The translations under genes and the position numbers were made by a program. The notes beneath the pieces are model-generated. The model was not told where the DNA came from and ran no database searches. It saw only the letters and a list, made by a program, of their open reading frames with translations. A stretch of 54,929 nucleotides of DNA from Nitriliruptoraceae bacterium (GTDB taxonomy: Bacteria > Actinomycetota > Nitriliruptoria > Nitriliruptorales > Nitriliruptoraceae). Of the stretch, positions 25,021 to 29,100 are shown in pieces. Where the stretch lies: the NCBI GenBank assembly GCA_018401275.1, contig JAGYKW010000009.1:1-54929 (forward strand). Direction: 5' to 3'. The number at the start of each line of letters is the position of its first letter. The stretch's first letter is position 1.

Positions 25021-25563
25021 CTACTCCGCGGCCACAACCGGCCCGGGACGCTCGCCCCCGACGACGAGCGCGACGGCCCACGCGGCGATCCCCTCGGCAC
25101 GCCCGATGCTGCCGAGCCCGTCGGTCGTCGTGGCCTTCACCGACACGGCGTCCGGCGCGATGCCGAGCGCGATCGCCAGCGCCTCCCGCATCGCGTCGCG
25201 GTGCGGGGCGACGCGCGGTCGTGCGGCGACGACGGTCACGTCGACGTTGCCGGGGCGCCATCCGGCCGCACGCAGCTCGGTGACGACCTCGCGCAGCATC
25301 CGCATCGAGTCCGCACCATCCATCGCCGGGTCGTCGACCCCGAAGCGTGTGCCGATGTCGCCGAGCCCCGCCGCGCCGAGCAGCGCGTCGATGACGGCGT
25401 GCGCGACGACGTCGGCGTCCGAGTGGCCCTCGAGCGGCGCATCAGCCGCGATCCGCACGCCGGCCAGCACGACGGTCGCGTCGGGCGCGGGCGCACCGAA
25501 GGCGTGCACGTCGATGCCGCTGCCGACCCTCGGCCACTCGGGCGTGCTCGGACTCGGACTCAT
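25021..25563 (-). CDS. ispF: 2-C-methyl-D-erythritol 2,4-cyclodiphosphate synthase
   Basis: A 180-aa MEP-pathway enzyme that makes MEcPP. The metal site GIDVHAFG (Asp, His) and 'LEGHSDADVVAHAVIDALLG' are standard, with DIGTRFGVDDP and VKATTTDGLGSIGRAEGI. ATG 25563 overlaps the TGA of the IspD-like gene (ATGA). Separate from ispD (27119-27827), so the MEP genes are split. Confidence 0.95.
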   Translation of the reverse strand: MSPSPSTPEWPRVGSGIDVHAFGAPAPDATVVLAGVRIAADAPLEGHSDADVVAHAVIDALLGAAGLGDIGTRFGVDDPAMDGADSMRMLREVVTELRAAGWRPGNVDVTVVAARPRVAPHRDAMREALAIALGIAPDAVSVKATTTDGLGSIGRAEGIAAWAVALVVGGERPGPVVAAE

Positions 25564-26120
25564 CCGATCGTCCCGTCCGCAGTCACGCGGACCGTCATCG
25601 GATCACCGTCCGTCGGGACGACGACGACGGCATGACCTGCGGCGAGCAGCAGCGCGACAGCGTCGTGCGCCTCCCCATCGCCGGCCGCGGCCTCATCGTC
25701 GAGCGCGGCGGCGAGCGCCGCACGGTCCAGGACGAACGGCAGGCACGGGATCATCAGCCCGTCGCGCTCGAGCCCGGAGATGACGACGTCGCCCTCGATC
25801 CGCTTGAGCGCGTCCGCCATCGGACGGGCTGCGACGACCGCTGCTGGCCCGTCGGACGCTGCATCCGCGGCGGCGATCAACCGACCGAGCATGACGATCG
25901 TCGCCGCGTCCTCCGTCAGCGTCGCGTCGAGCTCGACCACACGCGTCACGTGGGACGGGATCACCGCCAGCGCTCCGACCATCGAGGCGTCCGTGGTGAT
26001 CGCCAGCGCCCCATCGAGATGCGCGGACAGCCCTGCGGCGAGCGCGCCGTCGCCACCGACACCGCCGGTCGCCGCGCCTGCGGCAGCCATCGGGAGACGC
26101 AGCACGCCCCAGGTCACCAT
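25560..26120 (-). CDS. Degenerate IspD-like protein upstream of ispF
   Basis: A 186-aa protein with the outline of IspD (cytidylyltransferase) but eroded motifs. The N-terminus MVTWGVLRLPMAAAGAATG and GGVGGDGAL echoes the LAAGxGxRxG loop without the arginine; VVAARPMADALKRIEGD matches the region around V..TDTIKR; and 'HDAVALLLAAGHAVVVVPTD' matches the IspD C-terminus. The HDAARP signature is lost. ATG 26120 has GAGG 6 nt upstream. It would be a pseudoenzyme partner for IspF or a relic of an older ispDF pair; the intact-type ispD is 1 kb away. The IspD link is a by-eye inference. Confidence 0.55.
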   Translation of the reverse strand: MVTWGVLRLPMAAAGAATGGVGGDGALAAGLSAHLDGALAITTDASMVGALAVIPSHVTRVVELDATLTEDAATIVMLGRLIAAADAASDGPAAVVAARPMADALKRIEGDVVISGLERDGLMIPCLPFVLDRAALAAALDDEAAAGDGEAHDAVALLLAAGHAVVVVPTDGDPMTVRVTADGTIG

Positions 26121-26137
26121 GCGCGCCTCGACCCATC

Positions 26138-26164
26138 CATCGCAGCCATCGCAGCCATCGCAGC
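26138..26164. repeat. Three tandem copies of CATCGCAGC
   Basis: A 9-bp word repeated three times, plus related words to 26216, in the divergent region between the IspD-like and HAD genes. No function seen. Confidence 0.75.
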
Positions 26165-26262
26165 ACTTCCATCGCACGTCGCAGCACTGCCGTCGCAGCC
26201 CTGCGCTGCGTCAGGCTAGTCGTGAGGGTCCGCAGCGTCCGGGCCGCCCATCCCGGCCGTCC

Positions 26263-26268
26263 TATCCT
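26263..26268 (+). promoter_or_regulatory. Candidate -10 box before the leader ORF and HAD gene
   Basis: TATCCT ends 6 nt before the ATG at 26275. This spacing suits a leaderless mRNA starting at that ATG. No clear -35. Confidence 0.4.
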
Positions 26269-26274
26269 CCCGCC

Positions 26275-26334
26275 ATGCACGCACCCGCGGACCCGCACAC
26301 CCCTGCCACCGGCCCATCGACGCGTCCGTCGTGA
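26275..26334 (+). CDS. 19-codon leader ORF upstream of the HAD gene
   Basis: MHAPADPHTPATGPSTRPS ends in a TGA that overlaps the GTG start of the HAD gene (GTGA), while its ATG follows a -10-like TATCCT. Could be a short leader that couples translation, or the HAD gene's 5' end in a shifted frame. No peptide homology known to me. Confidence 0.35.
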   Translation: MHAPADPHTPATGPSTRPS

Positions 26335-27122
26335 TCCGGCTGGTCGCGAGCGACGTCGATGGGACCCTCCTCGACCACCACGGGGTGCTGCCCCCTGCGC
26401 GCGCCGATGCGGTCAGGGCGCTGAGTGCGGCCGGCATCCCGCTGGTGCTCGCCACCGGCAAGCTGTGGACGTCGGTCCGCGCGCTCACCGACCTGCTCGA
26501 CCTGCCCGGCCCGCACGTGGCCTGCAACGGCTCCGTCGTGTTCGACGCCGACGGGCGCCTGATCCGCACCTCGCTGCTCGACGCTGCCGTCGCCGACGAG
26601 GTCGCCGCGGTGCTCGCCGCACGCCGCATCCCCCACGCGCTCTACCTCGAGGACGGCTCGCTGGTCACGGCGCGTCTCGATGCCGCGCACGACGTGCTGC
26701 CGGTGCTCGGTGAGCCGCTGCCCACCGTGGCGGGACGGTCCGGACGTGGCGTCCTCAAGGTGCTCGCGATCCTCGGTCCCGACGACGAGGGCGAGCTGCG
26801 CACGCTCGCCGCCGACGTCGCCCGGGTGCAGCGCACCGGTCCACGCTTCCTCGAGTGGAACGCGGCCGACGCGGACAAGGCGACCGGCCTCGCGACCGTC
26901 ACCGAGCTGCTCGGTATCCCGATGGGCGACGTGCTGGCCGTGGGCGATGCCGAGAACGACGTGCCGATGCTGCGCGCCGCGGGCATCGGCGTCGCGGTCG
27001 TCGGCGCGAGCCCGGCCGCGTCGGCCGCCGCGGACCGCACCCTCACCCTCGACCTCGCGGACCTGCTGCTCGAGCTCGCCGCGACGCATCAGCTCGACCG
27101 TCCCCACGCGAGCCGCGCATGA
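26331..27122 (+). CDS. HAD-superfamily Cof-type sugar/phosphate phosphatase
   Basis: A 263-aa HAD hydrolase: nucleophile motif 'LVASDVDGTLLDHHGVLPPA', the Cof-type cap (VLATGKLWTSVRALTD, 'VACNGSVVFDADGRLI'), and motif IV 'VLAVGDAENDVPMLRAAG'. Substrate unknown; the family hydrolyses phosphosugars and flavin phosphates. GTG start 26331 follows the leader ORF. Its TGA overlaps the ispD ATG (ATGA). Confidence 0.9.
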   Translation: MIRLVASDVDGTLLDHHGVLPPARADAVRALSAAGIPLVLATGKLWTSVRALTDLLDLPGPHVACNGSVVFDADGRLIRTSLLDAAVADEVAAVLAARRIPHALYLEDGSLVTARLDAAHDVLPVLGEPLPTVAGRSGRGVLKVLAILGPDDEGELRTLAADVARVQRTGPRFLEWNAADADKATGLATVTELLGIPMGDVLAVGDAENDVPMLRAAGIGVAVVGASPAASAAADRTLTLDLADLLLELAATHQLDRPHASRA

Positions 27123-27827
27123 CGACGACGGCGATCCTGCTCGCGGGCGGCTCGGGGACGCGGCTCGGGACCGGCGACAACAAGGCGTACCTCACGCTCG
27201 ACGGGCATCCGCTGCTCGTGTGGTCGCTCGTCGCCTTCGAGCGCTGCAGCGCGATCGACGACGTCGTGCTGGTGACGCGACCCGAGGATCGCGAGCGCGC
27301 CCACGAGGTCGCGGCGGCCGCCGGCGTCACGAAGCTGCGGGCGGTCGTCGACGGTGGCGCGACGCGGCATGCGAGCGAGCAGGCGGGGCTGGACGCGGTG
27401 GCCGATCGACATCACGTCGGGCCGGACGACGCTGGTCGCGATCCATGACGCCGCACGCCCGTTCGTCAGCGGCGCGCTGCTGACACGCCTGCTCACGACC
27501 GCGGGCGAGCGCGGGGGTGCGGTCCCGGCCCTGCCGGTCGGGGCACCGTTCCTCGTGCGCGACGGCGCGCTCGTCGCGACCCATGACCTGCGGCGCATGC
27601 AGACCCCGCAGGCGTTCGAGGCGTCAGGACTGCTCGCCGCCTACCGGGCCGCCACCGCCGCGGGCTTCCACGGGGTCGACACGGCGGAGACGGTCGAGCA
27701 CCACGGAGCGCTCACGGTCGCGGTCGTCGACGGTGACCCCGACAACCGCAAGGTCACGTTCGCCGACGACCTGCGTGCGGCACAGGAGCGGGCACGGACA
27801 TGGCCCGAGGCGCCGACCCGCCGCTGA
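27119..27827 (+). pseudogene. ispD: 2-C-methyl-D-erythritol 4-phosphate cytidylyltransferase, one frameshift
   Basis: The MEP cytidylyltransferase, CTP + MEP to CDP-ME. The 5' part has the nucleotide-binding 'TAILLAGGSGTRLGTGDNKA' and 'PLLVWSLVAFERC'; the 3' part has VAIHDAARPFVSGALL and MQTPQAFEASGL, in the next frame. The switch lies at about 27400-27412 (GCCGATCGACATC); removing one C from GATCGAC gives A-V-A-D-D-I-T-S-G and a single 235-aa protein. ispD is essential where MEP is the only isoprenoid route, so a sequencing insertion is favoured. ATG overlaps the HAD TGA. Confidence 0.85.
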
Positions 27828-27843: not shown

Positions 27844-29100
27844 TCAGCGGGCGTCCTGGACGGCGCGCAGCCGCCGGATCGTCGAGTCGACCGTCTCGAC
27901 CGCATCCGCCGGCAACGGCTCGCCGGCACGGACCGGTCGGGTCACCGTCGCGCCCTCCGCGAGGCCGAGCAGCAGCAGCCCGCCGGCCTCCTCCACCGGA
28001 TGGACGACACCGCGCACGTGCGTGCCGCCGATCCCGTCGATGACGTCCCCGGGGACCAGATCGCGCTTCGCGGTCGCGACGACCTCGGCGACCCAGTGCG
28101 AGGCCTGCAGCGCCGGCGTGCCGTAGAGCACCGCGGTCGTGATCGTGCGCGGCGCCTCGATGCTGGCGAGGTGGTAGGGGCGGTAGAGCACGAAGTACGG
28201 CCCGTCACCGAGCTTGAGGTACTCGAGCTCCTCGACCACGGTCGGGTCGTCGGAGGTCACGACGACGAACACGCCGGGTGCTGGGCCGTAGGCGTAGTCG
28301 ACGCGCCCTGAGGCGGACAGCACGCCGCCGTCGGCGACGGGGATGAGCGTGCGGCGCAGCTCGTCGACCGATGCGGTCACGCCGTGCATGCCGACCACGT
28401 CGATGCGCAGGCCCGTCGCGTTCGCGAGCGCCGCCATCTCGATCATCGTCTTCGAACCGTCCTGGAAGCTCGCGAGCATCTTCGGGTTCATGCGCTTCGA
28501 CGCGGCCTCGGCCGCGCACGACTCGGGCGTCGCGGTCGGGATGAACGGGTTGTTCTTGCCCTTGCCCGCGGCGACGACCTCGAACGACAGCTCGGTCGCG
28601 AAGTCGAACAGCTCCTTCGCGCACACGGGCTCGTCACCATCCGCGACCGAGTACACGACGCCGTTGCGGTGCGCGATGTCAGCGAGCGCCAGCCCGATCG
28701 TCACGTCGCACTCGACGTTGAGCATGATGACGTGCTTGCCCGCGGCGAGGCATGCCTCGCCGATCTGCGCACCGACCTCGGGCACTCCCGTCGCCTCGAC
28801 GACGACGTCGACGTCGAGCTCCGGCAGCACGGCGGCGTCCACGAGCGCCGCACCCGCGTCACGCGCGACGGCGTCGACCGCACGATCGGGGTCGGTGACC
28901 GGCGAGGCGTGGCCGGCGGCGCGCATGGCCGTGAGCGCACGGTCCGGGTGTCGGTCGACGACGGCCGCGAGGTCCATGCCGTCGATGCGGCCGATCTGTG
29001 CGGCGAGGCCGCGACCCATCTGGCCGGCGCCGACGAGCGCGACACGCACAGGACGACCGAGACGCTCCGCATGTGCGGCGAGCTGCTCGAGACGGGTCAT
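27844..29100 (-). CDS. NAD(P)-dependent oxidoreductase with SAF domain
   Basis: A 418-aa protein: an N-terminal Rossmann domain ('RVALVGAGQMGRGLAAQIGR'), a homoserine-dehydrogenase-like middle with KGKNNPFIPTATPE, MNPKMLASFQDGSK, and a C-terminal SAF domain (ATAKRDLVPGDVIDGIGGTH). Members of this family act on sugar acids or related carbonyls; the substrate is not evident. It is convergent with ispD (16 nt apart) and follows carD by 31 nt. Confidence 0.8.
   Translation of the reverse strand: MTRLEQLAAHAERLGRPVRVALVGAGQMGRGLAAQIGRIDGMDLAAVVDRHPDRALTAMRAAGHASPVTDPDRAVDAVARDAGAALVDAAVLPELDVDVVVEATGVPEVGAQIGEACLAAGKHVIMLNVECDVTIGLALADIAHRNGVVYSVADGDEPVCAKELFDFATELSFEVVAAGKGKNNPFIPTATPESCAAEAASKRMNPKMLASFQDGSKTMIEMAALANATGLRIDVVGMHGVTASVDELRRTLIPVADGGVLSASGRVDYAYGPAPGVFVVVTSDDPTVVEELEYLKLGDGPYFVLYRPYHLASIEAPRTITTAVLYGTPALQASHWVAEVVATAKRDLVPGDVIDGIGGTHVRGVVHPVEEAGGLLLLGLAEGATVTRPVRAGEPLPADAVETVDSTIRRLRAVQDAR

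Follow-up and report, generated by a model that had tools for sequence, protein, structure and literature searches.

Reciprocal loss of active-site residues in two IspD-family genes suggests a heterodimeric IspD in Nitriliruptoria and other Actinomycetota

The window, by which we mean the whole 54,929-nt stretch of Nitriliruptoraceae DNA analysed (contig JAGYKW010000009.1), contains two divergently transcribed genes of the IspD family, together with ispF and a phosphatase gene. The features of this locus are listed below, with coordinates, strand and, where it applies, the basis of the assignment.

25021..25563 (-): ispF, ordinary full length (profile match)
25560..26120 (-): predicted IspD-family pseudoenzyme of 186 aa, which would serve as the arm subunit (partner) in a heterodimeric IspD
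25755..25823 (-): retained beta-arm motif of the partner, PMADALKRIEGDVVISGLERDGL (alignment to E. coli IspD)
26121..26330: spacer of 210 bp separating the divergent partner gene from the HAD-ispD pair (coordinates)
26331..27122 (+): Cof-type HAD-IIB phosphatase (profile match)
27119..27827 (+): catalytic IspD, the proposed catalytic subunit, interrupted near 27,410 by a one-base shift that is confined to this assembly
27182..27184 (+): codon of the conserved catalytic lysine (E. coli K27) of the catalytic subunit (sequence)
27444..27461 (+): HDAARP motif (E. coli D106, R109), intact and downstream of the frameshift (sequence)
27534..27590 (+): decayed beta-arm in the catalytic subunit, PVGAPFLVRDGALVATHDL (window sequence and relatives)

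The TGA stop codon of the 186-aa gene and the ATG start codon of ispF share four nucleotides (ATGA), and the eroded IspD-like gene overlapping ispF that had been described in the original prediction is real. The spacer at 26121..26330 is a probable promoter region shared by the partner gene and the HAD-ispD pair. Imperfect tandem repeats of about 9 bp (ccatcgcag) are located at 26136-26200, immediately upstream from the partner gene.

The 186-aa protein matched the Pfam IspD profile at 32.3 bits (cut-off 27) over its C-terminal half only, in agreement with the proposed derivation from IspD, and scored 33.5 bits against TIGR00453 (cut-off 181); the lack of any IspD profile hit, named in the original prediction as refuting it, was thus not observed. 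Residues are numbered hereafter as in E. coli IspD, the sequence of which was verified against 1I52/1INI. In the alignment to this reference, the partner of the window lacks the glycine-rich loop, K27, HDAARP and K213, confirming the loss of the nucleotide loop and HDAARP that had been noted before. The motif PMADALKRIEGDVVISGLERDGL holds the equivalents of D139, K142 and R157 (the last being R119 of the partner), with Ala in place of T140, and the MVTWGVL start of the protein is kept in relatives. The AlphaFold model (pLDDT 81, pTM 0.79) folds the arm as a hairpin, and nothing but IspD, IspDF, TarI and human ISPD appears among its best 50 structural matches (Z 11.7-14.6). With catalytic residues absent and the fold kept, the suggestion of a pseudoenzyme holds; judged from sequence and model together, the 186-aa gene is an IspD-family pseudoenzyme. 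As a member of a conserved family, it is not a relic.

Two reading frames of 27119-27827 (+) both matched IspD, at 65 and 87 bits. Comparison with the intact protein of a congener (G001) located a single-base break near 27,410, the halves being otherwise clean (85% and 76% identity), as expected from the earlier description of a canonical ispD split by one extra base. IspD motifs are present across both halves, the downstream half keeping all of its own, and the gene is unbroken in 17/17 relatives of the class. Because the frameshift is private to one draft genome (1.73 Mb, 96% complete), in which ispE, ispF and ispG are all present, it is better explained by a fault of sequencing or assembly, or by a very recent mutation, than by a broken pathway, and the defective MEP step that had been considered is unlikely. 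Programmed frameshifting was rejected, since the shift occurs in one genome only and the sequence at 27,400-27,415 shows no slippery heptamer. The arm of this catalytic protein, PVGAPFLVRDGALVATHDL, carries no equivalents of D139, T140, K142 and R157; in the predicted structure of the catalytic subunit, the best of five models and the sole good one, the arm has a pLDDT of 51-61 and does not form a proper hairpin. What the original prediction had missed is that, to judge from the alignments, the 'true' ispD has lost exactly the part that the eroded copy has kept.

In the ordinary IspD homodimer, each arm reaches over to hook onto its neighbour, where it helps to bind MEP. In the E. coli structure described by Richard and colleagues in 2001, R157 and T140 are said to come from the neighbouring subunit. 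This action in trans agrees with published statements on the arm and the interface, according to which the beta-arm hooks one subunit to the other and the active site lies where they meet (PMC11796317), the MEP site is on the arm (137-159) and R157 and K213 contact the MEP part (PMC11770629), and T140 contacts methylerythritol in E. coli (PMC3111433). Compared with the E. coli homodimer (YgbP, EC 2.7.7.60; 1I52/1INI), the catalytic subunit here has the fold and catalytic residues in common, and the partner has D139, K142 and R157 of the beta-arm. The E. coli enzyme, however, forms two identical active sites from one gene, while here the loops and the arm are encoded by two genes, allowing at most one site per dimer. 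The combination of an arm-less catalytic protein with an arm-only protein therefore points to two halves needed by one active site.

The reciprocal pattern was examined in 57 catalytic copies, 53 partners and 34 ordinary IspDs. K27, R20, H105, D106, R109, T165 and K213 were each present in 57/57 catalytic copies, and residue 18 was Gly in 54 of them; K142 was found in none (0/57) and R157 in 5/57, mostly with doubtful alignment. The partners presented the reverse picture, with R157 in 53/53 and K142 in 50/53, and with K27 in 0/53, K213 in 3/53 and R109 in 7/53. The ordinary single-copy IspDs kept all these residues (34/34). Within the class Nitriliruptoria, K27, R20, S88, H105, D106, R109, T165 and K213 occur in 17/17 catalytic copies, the arm (E. 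coli 137-159) of which is degenerate in all 17; the partners carry D139 and R157 in 18/18 and either Lys (16) or Arg (2) at position 142, and ordinary single-copy IspDs of the class keep D139, T140, K142 and R157. Conservation of the arm strands was 0.69/0.59 for partners and 0.79/0.67 for ordinary IspDs, against 0.51/0.46 for catalytic copies, while the G-loop, HDAARP and the K213 loop gave the opposite result. The same mirror image between the two genes was observed over the 56 positions conserved in ordinary IspDs.

The MEP site, however, is not simply reassembled from the two proteins, since T140 is replaced by Ala in 18/18 class partners and T189 by Val or Ala in 17/17 class catalytic copies. 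The loss of these two hydroxyls suggests, from the residues alone, a rearranged MEP site in the class. The sole IspDs of two Pseudomonadota MAGs, Nevskia (L133 4546-5424) and Rhodospirillales (L134 5581-6363), carry T140A together with R157N/Q, the rest of the arm being intact and a partner being absent; R157 alone is thus dispensable in some IspDs, and a residue regarded as positioning MEP varies in nature.

The first clue to a wider distribution was a set of weak opposite-strand IspD matches near a full-length ispD in several genomes of relatives, and about 60 regions of relatives were read for gene order. The majority of class genomes carry a single ordinary ispD in the order carD-ispD-ispF-cysS-rlmB. 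The others carry a short IspD-like gene at or near the ordinary ispD slot, with a full-length ispD divergent close by. A profile of the short gene detected the 186-aa family in 19/66 class genomes, with a clear gap between the family (at least 81 bits) and ordinary IspDs (at most 65 bits), and this recurrence is a pattern beyond chance. Partner and ispD are divergent in 18/18 class genomes, at a spacing of 35 bp to 2.7 kb in 17 and of 7.4 kb in one. The partner overlaps or abuts ispF in 10/18, and in the other eight it adjoins the full-length ispD instead. Arm loss was of predictive value: four genomes with an arm-less ispD in which a partner had at first been missed (G036, G039, G041 and G047) each proved to have one, located beside ispD or ispF with a profile built from the other partners. 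As to exceptional gene contents, G050 has two complete ordinary ispD-ispF pairs (L068, L105). Neither ispF nor a strong ispD was found in G006 and G018, two drafts (about 88% complete) of the same family and of genus g4, while a third genome of that genus, G030, has both.

Outside Nitriliruptoria, a search with the partner profile detected no partner, because distant partners were too divergent for it. A search with the catalytic subunit, in contrast, recovered the same arm-less type in other Actinomycetota, including 34/395 genomes of a second class, and the supposition that the pair is confined to Nitriliruptoria proved to be wrong. Most arm-less copies outside the class are adjoined by arm-intact partners. 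The pair is convergent and overlapping in family f29, convergent or nearly so in f60, where the catalytic copies are near ispF, and divergent in f53; the partners of f29 and f53 adjoin ispD away from ispF, and those of f6 and f17 are located elsewhere in the genome, beside ispF. In two complete f29 genomes (G130 and G416), the pair is the sole IspD. Altogether, an arm-bearing second IspD gene was found, often adjacent, in 55/58 genomes with an arm-less ispD, the window included, and none was found within the stretches read of G444, G750 and G457. In G457, the 19 kb read contain two distinct arm-less catalytic IspDs (L276 4816-5565 and 9146-10156), separated by about 4 kb, and no gene for an arm-bearing partner. 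Horizontal capture by phage was also considered and set aside, one viral-contig scan for the partner having given no match.

The second copies form a graded series. In G087 an arm-less IspD accompanies a complete second IspD; in G100 the second copy lacks only the G-loop and K27; in f6 and f29 partners HDAARP is altered as well; and the partners of Nitriliruptoria, about 147-190 aa in most genomes, are the most reduced. The series suggests, from gene content, that duplication or acquisition was followed by loss of the arm from one copy, by dependence, and then by decay of the other copy. The intermediates outside the class likewise suggest that a homodimer was duplicated and that its copies then decayed step by step in complementary parts. 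All 25 catalytic copies tested fall in one clade (100/99), while the partners long enough for tree placement group with ordinary IspDs, in two places. As the arm-less copies form one clade, the 57 catalytic cases are not independent, and a single arm loss, or a small number of them, is probable.

Both genes of the pair are under purifying selection. For the closest pair of genomes (G043, L130), pN/pS was 0.18 for the partner and 0.18 for ispD, and for G002-G003 it was 0.43 and 0.49, respectively; pairs more distant than these are near saturation. The distances of catalytic subunit and partner are correlated (r 0.78), whereas each correlates with IspF only at 0.31-0.36 (0.31 for the partner), and the partial correlation of the two given IspF is 0.75 (permutation p 0.0002). 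With a median partner distance of 3 per site, most of the partner protein is near saturation.

Based on the observed reciprocal residue loss, recurrence, linkage, selection and fold, IspD in this organism is likely to be an obligate heterodimer, in which a catalytic subunit and a pseudoenzyme arm subunit complete one active site. The product of 27119-27827 would bind CTP-Mg and perform the chemistry, its own dimerisation arm having decayed, and the product of 25560-26120 would have given up nucleotide binding and kept the arm. The partner arm would then furnish R157, with D139 and K142, in trans, so that the one active site on the catalytic subunit is complete. That the two proteins associate, that activity requires both genes, and that CDP-ME is still the product is what we infer. 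Counted against such a heterodimer were the five catalytic copies with an Arg aligned near 157, the partner-less stretches of G444, G750 and G457, the frameshift in the catalytic gene of the window, the changes at T140 and T189, the single IspDs with R157N/Q, and the confinement of arm loss to one clade.

Some of these points are equally what would be expected if the partner were a non-catalytic regulator or stabiliser that docks through its arm onto a catalytic subunit using its own rebuilt MEP site, in particular T140 replaced by Ala in class partners, T189 by Val or Ala in class catalytic copies, and the existence of single IspDs with R157N/Q. Pure docking, however, leaves unexplained why polar residues are kept, R157 in 53/53 and K142 in 50/53 of partners that are otherwise near saturation, and we regard this alternative as unlikely. 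A change of substrate, so that the pair would be a different cytidylyltransferase (for instance for ribitol phosphate) and not the MEP-pathway enzyme, might also account for the T140 and T189 changes, and the catalytic copies of five intact relatives do score slightly under the TIGR00453 equivalog cut-off (163.1-180.6 against 181.3). Against the ribitol-5-phosphate model, however, catalytic copies reach only 81-99 of the required 166, genomes that have other MEP genes contain no IspD besides the pair, and in f60 the catalytic copies lie near ispF, making this reading highly improbable.

The original prediction had offered two other readings of the 186-aa gene. That it works as a scaffold for IspF or channels substrate with it, much like bifunctional IspDF, could be supported by its contact with ispF in 10/18 class genomes, but the partner lies at ispD, away from ispF, in the other eight and in f29 and f53, linkage to ispD is found in 18/18, and partner distances follow ispD (r 0.78) and not IspF (0.31). 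The linkage to ispF is, moreover, ancestral, because ordinary ispDs of relatives fill the same ispF-linked slot; a scaffold for IspF is thus very improbable. That it is a relic, the decaying pseudogene of an ancestral ispD replaced by another copy, would suit its place in the ancestral carD-ispD-ispF-cysS slot and the disappearance of most IspD motifs. The frame is nevertheless open and one motif invariant in all genomes, pN/pS in the closest pair is as low as that of ispD, and the partners predicted from arm loss were found, so that decay is scarcely credible.

The heterodimer proposed here may be compared with known systems. Trypanosomatid AdoMetDC-prozyme (PMC5201418) likewise combines a catalytic subunit with a dead paralogue, and the two IspD-family genes are also co-inherited paralogues of which one is dead; the active heterodimer is established there and is proposed here from sequence. 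The prozyme, however, relieves autoinhibition of a different enzyme, whereas the dead subunit here would supply active-site residues in trans. Bifunctional IspDF (Campylobacter 1W55, Helicobacter 8XHU) shows a similar genetic tie between IspD and IspF and is among the top structural matches of the partner model. IspDF, however, is a complete IspD fused to IspF, while the ispF-adjacent gene of the window is a separate, overlapping gene without catalytic residues, and its partner is another IspD. TarI, a ribitol-5-phosphate cytidylyltransferase, has its fold in common with the partner model (Z about 12) but differs in substrate, and the catalytic copies score well below the TarI family model. 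The literature searched, which lacks most subscription journals, yielded no account of a split IspD.

Taking the distribution and the graded series together, we favour, with some reserve, the view that a split, obligate-heterodimer IspD occurs widely in Actinomycetota, in at least 11 of its families, and that one IspD clade lost its arm and came to depend on the resident IspD, which decayed stepwise and more than once to an arm-donating pseudoenzyme. If so, an essential enzyme could be seen ratcheting from a homodimer into an obligate heterodimer, with the intermediates still alive. IspD, an essential enzyme of the MEP pathway at which drugs and herbicides are aimed, has been described as homodimeric. 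Should the split be genuine, many of the actinobacterial genes labelled ispD or hypothetical would encode half-enzymes, expression of either gene singly would fail, and the subunit interface would be a distinct target. The intact, loop-less, HDAARP-less and shrunken partners would then form a natural series for testing complementary loss in such a transition.

The catalytic ispD of the window is flanked on both sides by genes that recur beside it elsewhere. Upstream, the stop codon of the Cof-type HAD phosphatase gene shares four nucleotides with the start of ispD, to which it is translationally coupled, and the phosphatase also adjoins ispD in G001-G003 and G007. Downstream, the catalytic ispD is adjoined by a gene for a DRL-type SAF-domain oxidoreductase (27844-29100), and in the distant family f6 a similar protein is encoded next to it (G077; L242 4421-5743).
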